36,115 nt of DNA, taken from positions 1 to 36,115 of IMG/VR virus record IMGVR_UViG_3300044832_000096; one strand, written 5' to 3'. Both the position numbers and the translations under genes were made by a program. This DNA comes from a virus. The notes under the pieces were generated by a model, which did not search any database, was not told where the DNA came from, and worked only from the letters and a program-made list of their open reading frames with translations. Of the stretch, positions 270-27,453 are shown piece by piece (position 1 is the stretch's first letter; each line of letters begins with the position of its first letter).

Positions 270-409
270 GATGCTTTGGAGGGGTGGGGTGCAGGGTCGG
301 GGTGGAGGCGGGGGCTTGAGGGGTTGCGGTGTTTCCGTGTTTCTGAACGTGGAAACTGCGAGGGTGAGGCTGAGGAGGTACTCATGCGTGGAAGCGACTT
401 CCTCATCAC
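266..409 (-). CDS. Repeat-derived small ORF linking two genes by stop/start overlaps
   Basis: A 47-codon frame starts at a GTG that overlaps the TGA of the gene upstream (stop 406-408). It ends in a TGA that overlaps the GTG of the excisionase-like gene (GTGA at 266-269). It lies almost wholly inside repeat copy L1, and its product is Ser/Pro-rich (STSSASPSQFP near the start, PHPSKAS at the end). The same TSSAS...SP peptide recurs in other copies of the repeat. It may be a real peptide or only a frame kept open to pass ribosomes to the next cistron. No function is recognised. Confidence 0.4.
   Translation of the reverse strand: MMRKSLPRMSTSSASPSQFPRSETRKHRNPSSPRLHPDPAPHPSKAS
273..379 (+). 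repeat. Intergenic cassette repeat, copy L1
   Basis: Read on the plus strand it has the outer end GCTTTGGAGGGGTGGGG, a middle GGCTTGAGGGG and the inner end CTGCGAGGGTGAGGCTGAGG. Before the inner end is a small inverted repeat, GTTTCC...GGAAAC, also present in copy R8. It lies just downstream, in transcription terms, of the gene at 406-693. Confidence 0.75.
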
Positions 410-2631: not shown

Positions 2632-3438
2632 TCATCGCAATCCCTCGCAACCAACAACCTGTAACCCGGCCCCGGCAGCCTGCGCCAGCACCGGAACGAA
2701 CCGGGCATGCACCCAGCCCACGGTCGCCGGGTGAAACGCGACCACAACCGCATCATCGTCCCGGCGGTGAGGGTGCGCGCCATGCCCCCAGACCTCCCAC
2801 AGCTGACCGAACCGCTCACGTAATCGGGCGTCCAGCTCAGCCCACAGCGCCTCCAGCTCGGGGTCTGACTCCGCGTCTGAGTGCTGCCGGGGGCAGGGCT
2901 CGGAGGCGACGCTTCCCTGTTCATCGGGCCTGCGTCTTCTGCGCCTTCTACGAGCCACCGCCGCGCCTTGCACAGCGCTGAGGGCGTGACCTGATTGCTG
3001 AAGTCCTTCGAGAAGTTCGGGTGTGCCCCCCTTGGGGGGTTGGGGGGTGCTGTTAAGTTCTTCCGTTCCTTCCACGCGCGCACGAGTGGCGGGCGGATGG
3101 CAGGCTGACGGGCGCCAGGATGCGGGCGCCAGCGCTTTGGCGCCCTGCCCCGGATCGTCGAGAATCGACAGCTGACCGGAGCCGACGAGATACACGCGGG
3201 GGCGCTGCGGGGACTCGAACTCGGGCACGCGGCGCAGCAGCCCGCGATCCTCAAGGCTGCGCAGCCCTCGCTGGATCGTACGCTCGGAGAGCCCCCACTC
3301 GCGCATCAGGCACTCGTTCGACGGGAACGCCAGGCCGCTCTCGCGGTTGGCGTAGTAGGCGACAGCCGCGCCGACAGCCCGCTCCATCCCGCGAGCTTGG
3401 GAGTCCTGGAGGACAGTTTGCATCGCCTCGAAGCTCAC
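2632..3438 (-). CDS. Phage replication initiator-like protein (winged helix N-terminus)
   Basis: The 268-aa protein starts VSFEAMQTVLQDSQARG. Residues about 20-75 form an HTH_36-type winged helix like that of phage replication initiators: PSNECLMREWGLSERTIQRGL, then SLEDRGLLRRVP. The middle is low-complexity and holds a run of eight Arg near residue 188. The C-terminal 70 residues (LWAELDARLRERFGQLW..., then VVVAFHPATVGWVHARF) resemble the fold pattern of DnaA domain I, a helicase-loader contact. It probably binds the phage origin and recruits host helicase. The first 23 bp of the gene are duplicated 313 bp upstream (see the direct repeats). Confidence 0.68.
   Translation of the reverse strand: MSFEAMQTVLQDSQARGMERAVGAAVAYYANRESGLAFPSNECLMREWGLSERTIQRGLRSLEDRGLLRRVPEFESPQRPRVYLVGSGQLSILDDPGQGAKALAPASWRPSACHPPATRARVEGTEELNSTPQPPKGGTPELLEGLQQSGHALSAVQGAAVARRRRRRRRPDEQGSVASEPCPRQHSDAESDPELEALWAELDARLRERFGQLWEVWGHGAHPHRRDDDAVVVAFHPATVGWVHARFVPVLAQAAGAGLQVVGCEGLR
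3416..3438. repeat. 23-bp direct repeat, copy at start of replication gene
   Basis: It starts GTTTGCATCGCC and ends TCGAAGCTCAC on the plus strand. It is identical to 3729-3751 and encodes the first residues (VSFEAMQT) of the initiator. Confidence 0.9.
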
Positions 3439-3440
3439 GG

Positions 3441-3707
3441 CTAGTACTGCACCTTGACGGTGTGGGCGCGCTCGGTGCTCCCGACCTCGCCGTACTTGTT
3501 GCGCTTGTCCTTGAACGAGATCGTGGTGACTGGGCCATCGCCCTCCGCGAGCACCTGCCCGTCGGCGTCGATGATCCGGATGCCGACCGTCTCGCCCTTA
3601 CGCAGCTCGCGCGTCAGCGCAAGACCACCGCTGACCTTCATCGATGCGACGTTCGGCTTCTCCCCGCCGACCTCAAAGCTGAGCTGGGTTATCTCGCGAT
3701 CGTCCAA
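3441..3707 (-). CDS. Small beta-rich protein inserted between 23-bp direct repeats
   Basis: An 88-aa protein with a strong beta pattern (ITQLSFEVGGEKP, VGIRIIDADGQVLAEGDG, VTTISFKDKRN) that I do not recognise. The likely start is TTG 3707, with GGAG about 9 nt upstream; Prodigal-like tools may choose differently. It lies exactly between two identical 23-bp copies of the initiator's start region, so it looks like a recent single-gene insertion. A substrate-binding or regulatory role cannot be inferred. Confidence 0.65.
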   Translation of the reverse strand: MDDREITQLSFEVGGEKPNVASMKVSGGLALTRELRKGETVGIRIIDADGQVLAEGDGPVTTISFKDKRNKYGEVGSTERAHTVKVQY

Positions 3708-3728
3708 CGGTCAGTCTCCTCTCGGTTT

Positions 3729-3751
3729 GTTTGCATCGCCTCGAAGCTCAC
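3729..3751. repeat. 23-bp direct repeat, upstream copy
   Basis: Identical to 3416-3438. In this copy the TGA stop of the upstream gene (3748-3750) overlaps the GTG, as it would have done in the ancestral junction with the initiator gene. Confidence 0.9.
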
Positions 3752-4068
3752 TTGGACCGTCCCAGCAGCCGGTACTCGCGGCCCAGAGCGGTGAACGTGA
3801 GCCGGCGGTGGATGGGATCGCTGACGCGTTCGATCAGCGCGTCGCCGTTACCACGCGAGATCCGGGTGACGACCCAGGCTTGTCCTTCCCGGTCCTCCCA
3901 GCGCTGGCCGTACTCGATCCGGGCTTTGACCTGTCGGGCTGAGAGTGGTTTGCGACGGCGCTTTGAGGGGGTGGAGCGGGGGGCCTGGGCTCGGGCGCGA
4001 GGCTGAGGGGACCGGCGCAACGGTTGGCCGACGTTTGACAATGGCGAGGATGAGGCTGAGGAGGTCAC
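3748..4068 (-). CDS. Small basic early protein, unknown
   Basis: A 106-aa frame. The first 40 residues (VTSSASSSPLSNV...RSTPSKRRRK) are encoded by repeat L4 and are Ser/Pro/Arg-rich. The remaining 65 residues form the folded-looking part: ARQVKARIEYGQRWED, then QAWVVTRISRGNG, then HRRLTFTALG. The pattern of a small beta-barrel with W-D and G residues is common in phage early genes, but the family is not recognised. GTG 4068 overlaps the upstream stop (GTGA). A later internal start is possible. Confidence 0.58.
   Translation of the reverse strand: MTSSASSSPLSNVGQPLRRSPQPRARAQAPRSTPSKRRRKPLSARQVKARIEYGQRWEDREGQAWVVTRISRGNGDALIERVSDPIHRRLTFTALGREYRLLGRSK
3958..4068 (+). repeat. Cassette repeat, copy L4
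   Basis: Outer GCTTTGAGGGGGTGGAGCGG, middle GAGGGGACCGGCGCAACGG, inner AATGGCGAGGATGAGGCTG then AGGAGG. The inverted partner is R4. Confidence 0.8.
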
Positions 4069-4358
4069 GCGGCGGGTGGCTCCGCGAACGCGAAGACCGG
4101 GACGGTCTTGTCACCGAGGTCGACGTGGACGGTGCAGATGTCCAAGAGCCCGAACGCGGCCCAGTCGCACGGCTCGGGGTCACCCCACTCATCGCGCGGC
4201 AGCACACGACCGATGCATTCCTGCGGCGCGCGTTGTGGGTCGGCGCCGAGCGCCTTGAAGTCGTTCGGGGAGGCTTCGTTGCCGCAGGCCGGGCAGACGA
4301 ACTTACAGTCCATCCTGCCGCGGCGGTCCATCTCGTCCTGCCACGCGGCGAGGGGCAT
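4065..4358 (-). CDS. VVA0879-family-like zinc-ribbon protein
   Basis: A 97-aa protein containing FVCPACGNEASPNDF and, further on, QECIGRVLPRDEWG. This is the arrangement of the VVA0879 family often carried by phages of high-GC hosts: a Cys-X2-Cys knuckle followed by a conserved C-I-G-R and a late Cys-Asp-Trp. The molecular function is unknown. The ATG at 4358 follows the repeat-encoded GAGGCTGAGGCG. The frame is also open back to GTG 4442, which would add VGEGLSKHAGTGARVV. The gene is bracketed by inverted repeats L4 and R4. Confidence 0.68.
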   Translation of the reverse strand: MPLAAWQDEMDRRGRMDCKFVCPACGNEASPNDFKALGADPQRAPQECIGRVLPRDEWGDPEPCDWAAFGLLDICTVHVDLGDKTVPVFAFAEPPAA

Positions 4359-4470
4359 CGCCTCAGCCTCTACCTGCCGTTGCCCAGCGCCCTCCACAAC
4401 GCGAGCGCCTGTCCCCGCATGCTTGGACAGACCCTCACCCACGGGCGCTCACCCCCTCAAAAGCAGGCCT
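4359..4470 (-). repeat. Cassette repeat, copy R4
   Basis: On the minus strand: GCTTTTGAGGGGGTGAGCG, GTGGGTGAGGG, GCGGGGACAGGCG, GGGCAACGGCAGGTAGAGG, CTGAGGCG. It is the inverted partner of L4. Confidence 0.8.
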
Positions 4471-4693: not shown

Positions 4694-5010
4694 CGAGCGT
4701 GCTGCCGATCGACTGAGGCTTGGGAGGGGGTGGGATTGCTGCGAGTGGGCGGGGCCGTTGAGTGAGGGGACCGGCGGCGACTGTCCTCCAGATCCCGAAG
4801 GTCCTCCATCGCACTGACGAACGCCAGCAGCGCCGTGTCGGCCACATTCCAGAGCCGCAGGATCTCCTTCGGCGCCCCGTCCGGTATGTCGAAGGTCAGC
4901 CCGATGAACCGAACGCGGGCCTCGCGGGCCGTCTCCAGCGCGCGGCTGTAGCTTTGGGTCGTTCCCATCGAGGCGCCCGTCCCCTCAAGCTCCCGCTCGC
5001 TCTCAGCCAC
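4690..5010 (-). CDS. Small protein with repeat-encoded termini, unknown
   Basis: The central part is a short alpha/beta domain (MGTTQSYSRALETAREARVRF, IGLTFDIPDG, WNVADTALLAFVSAMEDL) of unknown family. The frame can start at GTG 5010, giving the repeat-encoded VAESERELEGTGA, or at ATG 4968. The C-terminal 30 residues (RRRSPHSTAPPTRSNPTPS...) are encoded by repeat L5. The stop overlaps the next ATG, so the repeat really is inside the reading frame here. Confidence 0.6.
   Translation of the reverse strand: MAESERELEGTGASMGTTQSYSRALETAREARVRFIGLTFDIPDGAPKEILRLWNVADTALLAFVSAMEDLRDLEDSRRRSPHSTAPPTRSNPTPSQASVDRQHAR
4713..4785 (+). repeat. Cassette repeat, copy L5 (inside a coding end)
   Basis: GGCTTGGGAGGGGGTGGG, then GAGTGAGGGGACCGGCGGCG. 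The inner end is lost. It is translated as the C-terminus of the gene at 4690-5010. Confidence 0.65.
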
Positions 5011-5042
5011 GCCGTCTCACTCCCTCAAAAGCCGCAGTTCTC
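4972..5042 (-). repeat. Cassette repeat, copy R5
   Basis: On the minus strand: GAACTGCGGCTTTTGAGGGA, then GTGGCTGAGAGCGAGCGGG and GAGGGGACGGGCG. A 13-codon ORF coupled to the gene upstream (ATGA) ends at the TGA inside GTGGCTGAG. Confidence 0.7.
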
Positions 5043-6440: not shown

Positions 6441-6772
6441 GGATTCATGGATTCGGGATCGGCTGGGGAGGGAGGGGCTTCGCCCAACGGCGAGGTAGAG
6501 GCTGAGGAGGTCCGGTCCTCGTGGCCCTCGCAGCCGCAACGCTCGCAGTAGCCGCCACCGGGTGGATCGGGGTCGTGCTCGTCGTAGCGGTGCCCGCACT
6601 CGCAGATCGCGCTGTCGCGCAGCTCCTCGGCCCGCGCGATCATCGCGTCGAGGTTCGGGAACCGCTCGTACATCGCGGCCTCGCGGGCGGCTGCCGCATA
6701 GCCAGGGTCGGCCATCCACGGGTCGGCGTCGGTGCCCGCCAGCTCGGGATGCTCTCGATGCCAGCCGCTCAT
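6437..6772 (-). CDS. Zinc-ribbon protein A of a tandem pair
   Basis: A 111-aa protein with helical LDAMIARAEELRD followed by ICECGHRYDEHD and YCERCGCEGHED, a Cys/His cluster likely to bind zinc. It resembles the product of the next gene upstream in the C-X-C-G-H...C...C-X-C arrangement, suggesting tandem duplication. The last 25 residues (TSSASTSPLGEAPPS...) come from repeat L6. It starts at ATG 6772 and ends in ATGA with the HNH gene. Confidence 0.65.
   Translation of the reverse strand: MSGWHREHPELAGTDADPWMADPGYAAAAREAAMYERFPNLDAMIARAEELRDSAICECGHRYDEHDPDPPGGGYCERCGCEGHEDRTSSASTSPLGEAPPSPADPESMNP
6461..6512 (+). repeat. Cassette repeat, copy L6 (coding)
   Basis: GGCTGGGGAGGGAGGGGC, then CAACGGCGAGGTAGAGGCTG and AGGAGG. 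It is translated as the C-terminus of zinc-ribbon protein A. Confidence 0.7.
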
Positions 6773-7083: not shown

Positions 7084-7412
7084 TACGCCACCCCGTACAG
7101 GTGCCGTCCGAAGCTGGCCGCGGCCCGCTCGAGCCCGGCGTACCAGCAGGCACCCCGCCAGCCGCACGAGCACTCGTAGCGGTGCAGCGTGTGCTCTGGC
7201 ACCTCCTCGCCCTCATCGGTTCGGTAGGCGCTGCCCTGCTTGCGCAGCACGACCGGCGTGTGTCCCGCGCCAGCCTCCTCCCCCTCCCCAGCGTCGTTGT
7301 TCGCAGGAGCGTGGCGCGCGATCAACTCTCGATGTGCCTCACGGTCAAGCTGCTCTTGAGCCTGACCCTCTAGCCGCTCGGCCATACGGTCGGGGTGGTC
7401 GAACATGCTCAC
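7083..7412 (-). CDS. Small Cys-containing early protein, unknown
   Basis: A 109-aa protein from GTG 7412, whose GTGA overlaps the nuclease stop. It has an acidic helical N-terminus (RMAERLEGQAQEQLDREAHR) and a C-terminal YECSCGWRGACWYAG module followed by AAASFGRHLYG. The ECSCGWRG pattern with a terminal H is common in small phage/actinobacterial proteins of unknown function and may bind a metal. Confidence 0.65.
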   Translation of the reverse strand: MSMFDHPDRMAERLEGQAQEQLDREAHRELIARHAPANNDAGEGEEAGAGHTPVVLRKQGSAYRTDEGEEVPEHTLHRYECSCGWRGACWYAGLERAAASFGRHLYGVA

Positions 7413-8233
7413 AGTGTCCCGAGCCGCAAGGCGCAGTCGGTGTAGCGGCAGGTCGAGCAGAACCACGTGTTCGGCGCCGCGCCTCCCCAGATCCCGGTCT
7501 CGCAGCGCCACTCGATCTCGCGCGCGAGGCCGAAGATCCGCGCGGTGAGGCGGTCGAGCTGCGTGTCCGAGCGCTCCGTGGCCACGACGTCGGTGACCGG
7601 GGTCTTGTTGCGGACCATGCAGTCGAACAGGAACCCGGTCGCGGGGTTGCCCTCGGCGCGGCGCGCGCCAAGCTCGATCGTTGCCTGCAGGTCGCCGTCG
7701 GCGTCGCGCTGGCTCATCCGCTTGGTGGTCATCTTCGAGTCGCGCACGCGGCCAGCGGTGTCTTCGAGGTCGATGTAGCCGGTCACGCGCCAGTCGACGC
7801 CCGGCCAGGAGAACTCGAACTCGCGCTCGACCGCGACCGGCACGACATGCGGAGCGATCTGGGCGTGGTAGGCCTTCAGCGCGCCGGCGCCTGAGTCCTT
7901 CAGCGCGCCGGCGCTGTCAGAGCCGTAGTCGACCTCCTCCCCTGCGGTCTTCGCATCCCATTCGGAGGCGAACTCGTCGAGCAGCCCCTCGGCGCACAGC
8001 CCCTCGCCTGTCTCCAGCTGCAGGCCGTAGTGCTGCGCGAGCGCGGCGTGGCCCGCGGAGCCGAGCAGCAGCTTCCCCGAGGGCGGCTCGGGCTCATGGT
8101 CGATGTAGCGCCGGCGCCACTTCTCCGGGCACATCATCAGCTGCCGGAGCGAGGAGATCGACAGGTACTCGACCGGCAGGCTCGCCGGCGGATCCACCCG
8201 GACGTTCGGGTTCAGCGTGATGGTGGCGCTCAC
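7409..8233 (-). CDS. PD-(D/E)XK nuclease of RecB/Cas4 type with probable Fe-S cluster
   Basis: A 274-aa protein. YLSISSLRQLMMCPEKWRRR carries the first Cys (35). GSAGHAAL follows, then VTGYIDLED (Asp of the GxxD motif), RDSKMTTKRM (D-x-K) and LQATIELGARRA (the Q motif). The C-terminus has Cys 259, 262 and 267 in a C-X2-C-X4-C layout. Together with Cys35 these match the 4Fe-4S cluster of AddB/Cas4-like exonucleases. It sits directly after the ERF gene (GTGA overlap), as exonuclease and annealing protein often do in phage recombination modules. A short tandem repeat (SAGALKDSGAGALK) occurs near residue 115. Confidence 0.82.
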   Translation of the reverse strand: MSATITLNPNVRVDPPASLPVEYLSISSLRQLMMCPEKWRRRYIDHEPEPPSGKLLLGSAGHAALAQHYGLQLETGEGLCAEGLLDEFASEWDAKTAGEEVDYGSDSAGALKDSGAGALKAYHAQIAPHVVPVAVEREFEFSWPGVDWRVTGYIDLEDTAGRVRDSKMTTKRMSQRDADGDLQATIELGARRAEGNPATGFLFDCMVRNKTPVTDVVATERSDTQLDRLTARIFGLAREIEWRCETGIWGGAAPNTWFCSTCRYTDCALRLGTL

Positions 8234-9033
8234 GATCCCTCCCCGATGCCATCCTTGACGGCGGTCACGAGCTTGGCCGGCAGGCGGTCGAGCAGCCGCT
8301 TGAGCGTCTGCTCAGCGTGCTCCTCGGTACGCCACACCCGCGGCGGCGCATCGCCGGCGACGAGCAGCACGTTGGCGAACTCGCCGGCGGACAGTCCCGC
8401 GGCCCGCGCCCGGGCTTCGAGCATTCCGCGCTCCTTCGCGTTGGCGGGGCGCTCGGTGGGCTTGGCGGGCGCCGCGACCGGCTGGGGTGCCGCATGGTGC
8501 GCAGCTTCCGCCTCGGCGTAGCGGTCCACCGGCGCCGACACGGGCGTGTTCGCACCGCGGCCGTCGTCGTCCTCGTCGATCGTCAGGTTCAGGTAGGCGG
8601 TCAGCGCTTGGCGCCGCCCGTAGGTGATCCCGGATCCGAGGGCCTGCATCGTCTGGTCGACGAGCAACGGCATCGTGTCCTCCTCGAACTCGGATGAGGG
8701 CACGTGCGTCATGCGGTAGCGCACGCCCGGGGCGCCGTTGACAAGGACGGTCGGGTAGACCTTCCACAGCAGCTGCTCCTCGACGAGCAGCGGCAGGACC
8801 TCATCGGTGACGGCGGTCAGGGTGGCGTAGGTGTACATGCGGTTCTGGATCTGGCCCTTCGCGTTGCGGACGATCGGCGCGACCTTCGCCTGCACGCGAA
8901 GCACCGCGGCGTCGAGGTTCGGCGTCGCGAGCGCGGCCAGCGGCTCGGGTGCCGGTTGGGGTTGGGGTAGCGGGGTGACGAGCGGAACCCGTGGCCCGCG
9001 GGCGCGGCCGTTGGGTGCGGTTGCGGCGCTCAT
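8230..9033 (-). CDS. ERF-family single-strand annealing protein
   Basis: A 267-aa protein. The ERF core spans about residues 30-165: TYATLTAVTDEVLPLLVEE, then a beta stretch ending RYRMTHVPSSEFEEDT, then ALGSGITYGRRQALTAYLNL and IDEDDDG. The C-terminal half is a linker followed by a helical region (KERGMLEARARAAGLSAGEF, RLLDRLPAKL). ERF proteins anneal complementary single strands and promote recombination between diverged sequences. That suits a mosaic phage genome with many repeats. The start ATG 9033 overlaps the SWIM gene stop (ATGA). Confidence 0.85.
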   Translation of the reverse strand: MSAATAPNGRARGPRVPLVTPLPQPQPAPEPLAALATPNLDAAVLRVQAKVAPIVRNAKGQIQNRMYTYATLTAVTDEVLPLLVEEQLLWKVYPTVLVNGAPGVRYRMTHVPSSEFEEDTMPLLVDQTMQALGSGITYGRRQALTAYLNLTIDEDDDGRGANTPVSAPVDRYAEAEAAHHAAPQPVAAPAKPTERPANAKERGMLEARARAAGLSAGEFANVLLVAGDAPPRVWRTEEHAEQTLKRLLDRLPAKLVTAVKDGIGEGS

Positions 9034-9281
9034 GCTGCCACCCGGGCCTGCTCGGACTGGCGGACCTGCGCTACTGCCAGCACGTGCGAGCACAGCGGCG
9101 TGCGCGCCTCACAGGAGCAGAAGATGCCCTGCTGGTTGGCGATCACGAGATGGTTGTCCGTGTCCCCGTCGACCACGTACACGAGCGCCGCCGGCACGAG
9201 ATGCACGCAGTCCTGGGCGATCAACCGGGCGGCCTTCTCGATCGGCTGCTCTCGGGTTCGGATAGGGTGCGTCACGCTCAA
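9030..9281 (-). CDS. SWIM zinc-finger protein
   Basis: An 83-aa protein, first in the early operon. FCSCEARTPLCSHVLAV is a C-X-C...C-X-H SWIM finger, preceded by a strand region HLVIANQQG. SWIM fingers bind DNA or proteins and occur in recombination-linked proteins; here it is coupled to ERF and the nuclease. The start is TTG 9281 or GTG 9275, with AAGGAG just upstream. Confidence 0.72.
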   Translation of the reverse strand: MSVTHPIRTREQPIEKAARLIAQDCVHLVPAALVYVVDGDTDNHLVIANQQGIFCSCEARTPLCSHVLAVAQVRQSEQARVAA

Positions 9282-10935: not shown

Positions 10936-10961
10936 GAGCAGAATTATCCCCAGCCGCCGGA

Positions 10962-11067
10962 CATCCTCAGCCTCACCCTCGCAGTTTCCACCTTGATCGG
11001 ATGGAAACCCCCGTCCCCCACGCTCCCGGCCACCCTCGCCCGCAACGACCCCACTCCCCTCAAAGCC
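10962..11067 (-). repeat. Cassette repeat, copy R8
   Basis: On the minus strand: GGCTTTGAGGGGAGTGGGG, GGCCGGGAGCGTGGGGGACG, a GTTTCCA...TGGAAAC inverted repeat, then CTGCGAGGGTGAGGCTGAGG. It is the partner of L8. Confidence 0.78.
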
Positions 11068-26495: not shown

Positions 26496-26756
26496 TGGAC
26501 TTTGCGATGGGAGGAAGATCTGAGCTGGGGGCCGTATCTCGTGGTCGAGCCCGACGATCTGCCCATCCGGCATCCCCACGCCGTCGACGATGGTGACCCG
26601 GAGTCCATCGAGGTCATGCCGGTCAGCGACCACGAGGCGGTGTGCAACGCTGCGAGCTGGCTGGTCAACGGGGTGATGGGCGGTTGGAACTTCCCCGCGA
26701 TCAATGAGCTGCGCGCGGCGCTAGACCGCTCGCCGTCTAGCTCAGCGACAGGCTGA
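26451..26756 (+). CDS. Plus-strand insert gene 2, unknown
   Basis: GTG 26451 lies in GTGGCTGA, which also holds the stop of gene 1. The N-terminus VAEEGRGIEGTGG is repeat-encoded. The rest (WGPYLVVEPDDLPIRH, DHEAVCNAASWLVNGVMGGW, INELRAALDRS) is an acidic alpha/beta protein of unknown family. The end of the gene carries one copy of the 19-bp direct repeat. Stop and next start overlap as TGATG. Confidence 0.55.
   Translation: MAEEGRGIEGTGGKRWTLRWEEDLSWGPYLVVEPDDLPIRHPHAVDDGDPESIEVMPVSDHEAVCNAASWLVNGVMGGWNFPAINELRAALDRSPSSSATG
26738..26756. repeat. 19-bp direct repeat, copy 1
   Basis: TAGCTCAGCGACAGGCTGA, identical to 26954-26972. Here it encodes the last codons and stop of insert gene 2. Confidence 0.9.
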
Positions 26757-26956
26757 TGCACGTCACGAACAAGCAGCTCGGCGATCTCGTGGTCGCGCTG
26801 ATGGTCGCCGCCGAGGAAGGCGCGCTACGCAACGAAGGTTTGGCGAGGACGCTTGAGGCCGAGTGCCGGGTCAGGGGCATCGACATCGTTGAGTTGCCCT
26901 ACGGGCACGGAACCACCACGCCCGAGCGCTGGCTTGAGAGCTACCTACAGCTTTAG
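26756..26956 (+). CDS. Plus-strand insert gene 3, flanked by 19-bp direct repeats
   Basis: A 66-aa protein: VTNKQLGDLVVALMVAAEEG, ARTLEAECRVRGIDIVELPY, WLESYLQL. It is helical and acidic and its family is not recognised. It starts with TGATG coupling to gene 2. Its stop overlaps the minus-strand tail terminator stop. The gene occupies exactly the space between two identical 19-bp copies, so it appears to have been added last. Confidence 0.65.
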   Translation: MHVTNKQLGDLVVALMVAAEEGALRNEGLARTLEAECRVRGIDIVELPYGHGTTTPERWLESYLQL

Positions 26957-27453
26957 CTCAGCGACAGGCTGACCAGCAGCCGACTCGCGACGAGCCCGCC
27001 CTCTGGCCCGAGCGGCTGCAAACCGTCGATCACGAACCCCTCGCCCACTCCGGCCAGCAGATGGTTCTCCGCGAGCGAGATCCCGGCGAGCATCAGCGCC
27101 TGCGCGTCGGTGATCGTGTGCTTGCCATCGGCGTCCTGCTCGTCCGCGGTCGGGATCTCGCCGAGCGTGAACCCCTCGGTGTTGATCACGGTCACGGACC
27201 GCACCAGGTTGACGGAGAACGTGGCATAGGTCGTGATCCGCTGGGGCACCATCGTGCTCGCCTGCCCGAGCCCGGGCTGGCCCTGGGTGATGCCCATCAG
27301 CGCGACGGTCATCTGCTCGCCGTCCCACACGATCTGTGACCCGGCCGCCACGTATTGGCGCTCGGGCAGGTCCACGTCGAGCGCGGTCAGTTGCGCGCCG
27401 AACACGGCGAGGATCTGCTCGGCGAGCCCGGGCAGATCCGTGAGGCTCGCCAT
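26953..27453 (-). CDS. Tail terminator-like protein
   Basis: A 166-aa protein located between the head-tail adaptor region and the gp10-like gene. The pattern SLTDLPGLAEQILAVFGAQL, ITTYATFSVNLVRSVTVINT and ALMLAGISLAENHLLAGVGE fits small head-tail or tail-terminator proteins of siphophages. The assignment rests mainly on gene order. Confidence 0.5.
   Translation of the reverse strand: MASLTDLPGLAEQILAVFGAQLTALDVDLPERQYVAAGSQIVWDGEQMTVALMGITQGQPGLGQASTMVPQRITTYATFSVNLVRSVTVINTEGFTLGEIPTADEQDADGKHTITDAQALMLAGISLAENHLLAGVGEGFVIDGLQPLGPEGGLVASRLLVSLSLS
26954..26972. repeat. 19-bp direct repeat, copy 2
   Basis: Identical to 26738-26756. On the minus strand it encodes the C-terminal residues of the tail terminator-like protein. 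Confidence 0.9.

Follow-up and report, generated by a model that had tools for sequence, protein, structure and literature searches.

The closest described parallels to the arrangement reported here come from mycobacteriophages. In the Cluster O phage Corndog, copies of a 17-bp direct repeat lie on both sides of a single small gene, gene 14; related phages have one copy at the gene junction, and the reading offered is recombination with partner DNA (PMC4351075). Gene 60 of YungJamal is a reverse gene among the tail genes, located between 24-bp imperfect repeats of a gene junction (PMC4351075). Island3 gene 68 and the block of LRRHood genes 43 to 46 are flanked by a repeat of a neighbor's 3' end (50 to 60 bp and 29 bp, respectively) that is single in relatives (PMC3029335). 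Both acquisition through recombination at the repeats and deletion between them were weighed by the authors (PMC4351075, PMC3029335). The morons of tailed phages are likewise single genes that are present in one relative and absent from another, and the ultra-small MPME elements of mycobacteriophages are very small insertions without an obvious standard transposase. MPMEs have inverted-repeat ends and recur as one conserved element.

We analyzed the genome of a siphovirus-like phage whose early region lies on the minus strand, the 36,115-bp IMG/VR record IMGVR_UViG_3300044832_000096 (the window, that is, the whole stretch of DNA analyzed). It contains a small gene, here called X, that is bracketed by a short direct repeat, the repeat being the edge of the neighboring gene (Table 1). 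Like Corndog gene 14, X is a small repeat-flanked gene; the differences are the repeat length, 23 bp, and an ortholog that is found elsewhere in a relative. X is a single gene, unlike the four genes gained by LRRHood, and it runs with its operon, unlike ORF Q of the same genome, which runs against its operon and in this resembles morons. The presence of one gene in one relative and the lack of an obvious transposase are shared with morons and MPMEs, respectively, but X does not recur as MPMEs do. The case looks like an already described kind of mosaic joint produced by imprecise recombination and not like a new mobile element. What is added here is the relocated ortholog, another such event in this genome, and three further cases, in Microbacterium phage Hendrix, G007, and G024.

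Table 1. Coordinates of the features of the two repeat-bracketed loci and of the recombination genes in the window
Feature	Position	Strand	Basis or remark
Replication-initiation-like gene (initiator)	2632-3438	-	268 aa, HTH_36
Inner 23-bp copy, intact initiator start	3416-3438	-	Repeat search
Gene X, 88 aa, TTG start	3441-3707	-	Ortholog L003:14573-14839, 77% aa identity
Leader of X with ribosome-binding site GAGAGGAG	3708-3728	-	Sequence
Outer 23-bp copy, probable footprint of the first 23 nt of the initiator; start of a 20-codon mini-ORF	3729-3751	-	
Upstream neighbor, 106-aa ORF	3748-4068	-	TGA stop at 3750-3748, in GTGA overlap with the outer copy
PD-(D/E)XK exonuclease, paired with Erf	7409-8233	-	Domain/family searches
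Erf-like single-strand annealing protein, possible recombination agent	8230-9093	-	phrog_2324, 7e-20
Second case, 19-bp copy at the 3' end of ORF P	26738-26756		P on the + strand, predicted at 26541-26756
ORF Q, 66 aa, flanked by the 19-bp copies, oriented against the late genes	26756-26956	+	
Second case, 19-bp copy at the 3' end of the late gene	26954-26972		
Late gene, phrog_810, 3' end duplicated	26953-27453	-	70% aa identity in G001

The 23-bp sequence, GTGAGCTTCGAGGCGATGCAAAC, corresponds to codons 1 to 8 of the initiator gene, in frame. It occurs in the window in two copies only, which are 100% identical and lie 313 bp apart from start to start. Read along the minus strand, the order is the 106-aa gene, the GTGA overlap, the outer copy, a ribosome-binding site, X, TAG-CC, and the inner copy with which the initiator starts, so that X ends TAG-CC-GTG, running into the inner copy. 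Both copies have sharp ends (outer, CCAA/GTGAGC...AAC/AAACC; inner, TAGCC/GTGAGC...AAC/TGTCC). The mini-ORF opened by the outer copy encodes MSFEAMQTNREETDRWTIAR and stops just inside X. A chance origin of the repeat was ruled out with 200 dinucleotide-shuffled versions of the window, in which the longest direct repeat within 500 nt measured 13 nt on average and 16 nt at most. The first-pass annotation had described a perfect repeat of the initiator start with exactly one small gene between the copies, an outer copy overlapping the upstream stop as GTGA, and no visible transposase. This description is accurate: X is the only ORF that the copies enclose, neither a transposase nor an inverted repeat was found, and no inverted pair has both arms inside 3416-3751. 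A DNA search with the window junction returned no match; a 20-mer shared exactly with a tail gene of IMGVR_UViG_3300018059_000108 was rejected as unrelated.

The initiator matches Pfam HTH_36 (6e-9), phrog_391 (7e-9), and phrog_1032 (8e-9), and searches of Pfam and PHROG with the 106-aa ORF gave no match. X matched no family in Pfam, PHROG, and further protein searches. No recombinase or nuclease domain was found in X by domain searches, nor was an HNH, LAGLIDADG, or GIY-YIG domain that would indicate a free-standing homing endonuclease. Comparison with solved structures gave no convincing match. The predicted structure of X was too poor for use (mean pLDDT, 43.5). Protein searches among named phages with X and the initiator gave no matches, and GTDB genomes scanned with X and with the exonuclease yielded no prophage. 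Among all genomes searched, X was found in two only, the window and a close relative, IMGVR_UViG_3300031452_000170 (G001; its locus L003), which was reached via the exonuclease gene. Within a set of 31 related records, retrieved with the capsid maturation protease/portal-region protein as the query, only G001 has X, many of these records being fragments that may lack the early region.

G001 is collinear with the window at about 73% nucleotide identity (70 to 80% in the late genes), and the early region is mosaic. The initiator homolog in G001 starts with GTGAGCTTGGAGGCGATGCAG, a single diverged copy that overlaps the preceding stop as GTGA, and X is not at this junction. Because of this single, uninterrupted start, we infer that X was probably joined in secondarily in the window, the part of the first-pass proposal that stands. 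The uninterrupted junction for which that annotation had suggested a search is matched in G001 on one side only: the gene upstream differs from that of the window, so only the initiator side is homologous. The G001 genome also contains an exact 1,082-bp tandem duplication spanning a collagen-like gene (L007:14322-16485), either a recent duplication or an assembly effect, and record G003 begins exactly inside it.

The X ortholog of G001 lies two genes downstream of the initiator, a few hundred base pairs away. It has its own ribosome-binding site, CCAGGAGGAATCCA, before a GTG start, and no 23-bp repeat surrounds it. On the 3' side of X, G001 has AAAGCCGTGAGC, the start of the next gene, where the window has TAGCCGTGAGC, the initiator start; on the 5' side, GGCAACCCAACC in G001 corresponds to GCAAACAAACC in the window, at the end of the outer copy. 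A relative with the gene and without either duplicate had been named in advance as evidence against the insertion. G001 is such a relative to the letter, but it carries X at another locus, and this is evidence against a mobile element rather than against secondary joining. For X, the synonymous divergence between the window and G001 (dS, 0.62; dN, 0.12) is within the range of the exonuclease, major head, tail, and protease genes (dS, 0.46 to 0.79); for the initiator, dS is 1.13 and dN is 0.73. Judged by these values, X is as old in this pair of genomes as the shared core genes. This match speaks for a resident gene that moved or for an exchange among members of the lineage, one or the other of which is probable, rather than for a recent arrival from a distant source. 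The neat insertion with target duplication that had been proposed is not supported, in view both of this equal divergence and of the repeat-free X of G001.

The explanation that we consider reasonably probable is that imprecise recombination (short-homology or illegitimate) placed X directly in front of the initiator and left the 23-bp duplication as its footprint. One join would lie 23 nt inside the initiator coding sequence and the other at its GTG start, and therefore the first 23 nt would be retained twice, the outer copy preserving the end of the overlapping upstream gene and the inner copy preserving the initiator start. Most likely, X would have been resident near a G001-like position downstream of the initiator and then moved, through a local tandem duplication followed by loss or through an unequal exchange between coinfecting kin. 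An unequal exchange at the shared CCGTGAGC together with a join at GCAA would give exactly the window structure, which we offer as a suggestion only. The flanks of X in G001, AGCCGTGAGC (3') and GGCAACCCAACC (5'), resemble the window joins CCGTGAGC and GCAAACAAACC; on the left flank, the resemblance lacks significance (p of about 0.02 by shuffling, several unrelated gene starts scoring equally), and microhomology at the left join was dropped as evidence. A remnant of a second X downstream of the window initiator was looked for and not found. The likely agent would be the Erf/exonuclease pair of the phage itself. Rad52-like recombinases, an Erf among them, can recombine diverged DNA that shares short identical stretches, and the pairing segment of Red-beta is quoted as 23 to 27 bp (PMC3945230). 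In a compact array of overlapping genes, such duplications may survive selection because an insertion without a duplicated overlap would break a neighbor; only events that duplicate the overlap would spare both neighbors and be kept. The locus is a datable example of phage gene rearrangement in such an array, with a direction and a footprint that can be read because a relative holds X at another place.

Lateral acquisition, in which X would have arrived from another phage through recombination with a partner DNA carrying a similar initiator start, is possible and clearly the less likely account. The published precedent and the mosaic early region speak for it, as does the absence of X from the other 30 related records searched, many of which are fragments; against this, X has diverged at synonymous sites as much as the core genes have, and G001 holds it within a few hundred base pairs of the initiator. 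We regard the reverse polarity as improbable. The repeat-X-repeat arrangement would then be ancestral, and G001 would have lost X by deletion between the repeats and regained or kept it elsewhere. Direct repeats do delete readily, and deletion was not excluded by the authors of the Cluster O and C1 studies (PMC4351075, PMC3029335), but a 23-nt fragment of an initiator start is a derived structure that still needs an earlier duplication, and the two copies are still identical.

The window contains a second case, in which a perfect 19-bp repeat (26738-26972) brackets ORF Q. This is the layout of YungJamal gene 60, whose copies are degenerate (14 of 24 positions conserved) whereas those of the window are perfect. 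Both P and Q are absent from G001, the late gene is present there, and no recombinase or nuclease domain was found in Q. Without the duplication, the late gene and P would overlap tail to tail, and with it each retains its end; the 23-bp duplication likewise leaves the 106-aa gene and the initiator intact.

To these two cases, a survey added three, for a total of five clean two-copy edge duplications around one small gene. The survey covered 2.40 Mb, made up of 18 named phages, most of them cultured actinophages, together with 13 related uncultivated records, and genes were predicted with a simple script based on coding potential. In G007, the repeat is 19 bp long and covers a ribosome-binding site; in G024, it is 21 bp long and consists of codons 4 to 10 of the next gene; and at gp32 of Hendrix, it is 20 bp long and consists of the gp33 start (L154, NC_047977.1 14011-14381). 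The duplicated gp33 start now acts as the start of Hendrix gp32, and the homolog in phage Rasputia has another N terminus. The genes inserted in the five cases are unrelated to one another, and no clean two-copy case was found in the survey at 16 to 17 or 24 to 60 nt. Other repeats near genes, longer or shorter, were mostly multicopy regulatory repeats, tRNA pieces, or paralogs, and candidates in G013, W01, W16, W21, and G023 and at Marcie gp4/gp6 were set aside as paralogous or multicopy repeats. A characteristic length of 20 bp seemed clear in the first 1.36 Mb, and the doubled sample gave no further clean case. Such a length is not claimed here because two-copy repeats of 11 to 15 nt are in modest excess in the doubled sample (17 seen versus 8.9 expected) and the published lengths range from 17 to 60 bp. 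We doubt that an unnamed process of actinophages inserts single small genes at junctions, in either orientation and with unrelated cargo, duplicating about 20 bp; if it did, this would imply an enzyme whose stagger or pairing length is fixed and not random illegitimate joins. The five cases, two of them in one genome, suggest a cheap screen for repeats of a neighbor's edge around one ORF, which could decide between short homology of set length and random joins filtered by selection.

True transposition, in which X either is or was once carried by a small mobile element that makes a target duplication of about 20 bp, is very unlikely. The narrow spread of the clean cases (23, 19, 19, 21, and 20 bp) would fit it, but the published repeats measure 17, 24, 29, and 50 to 60 bp, the inserted genes are unrelated, the ends of the insert do not form an inverted repeat, neither X nor Q has a recombinase or nuclease domain, and the only other copy of X found has no repeat. 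Least credible is a functional element doubled for its own sake (an operator, origin iteron, or translational signal): multicopy start-associated repeats are indeed present in the window and in G013, but this repeat has only two window copies, comprises in-frame initiator codons with sharp ends, and is represented in G001 by a single diverged copy.

Dispersed repeats, GAGGGTGAGGCTGAGGAGGTCACGCGG and its kin, are located at gene starts in the window (346-379, 1063-1106, 2209-2252, 4039-4086, 6485-6512, and, inverted, 10961-10994), and a companion family occupies 1723-1839, 2515-2631, 4357-4458, and 4973-5026. Several minus-strand ORFs of the window begin with GTGACCTCCTCAGCCTCA, representing either shared N-terminal leaders or start-associated regulatory repeats. 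In G013, two families of 18- to 24-bp repeats, with three copies each, lie at successive gene starts (46909-47535 and 48135-48552) and probably are start-associated regulatory sequences. Finally, an 18-bp in-frame duplication in G010 (49194-49355) surrounds a small Cys-rich domain within one reading frame and is the same kind of joint, with a domain inserted instead of a gene.
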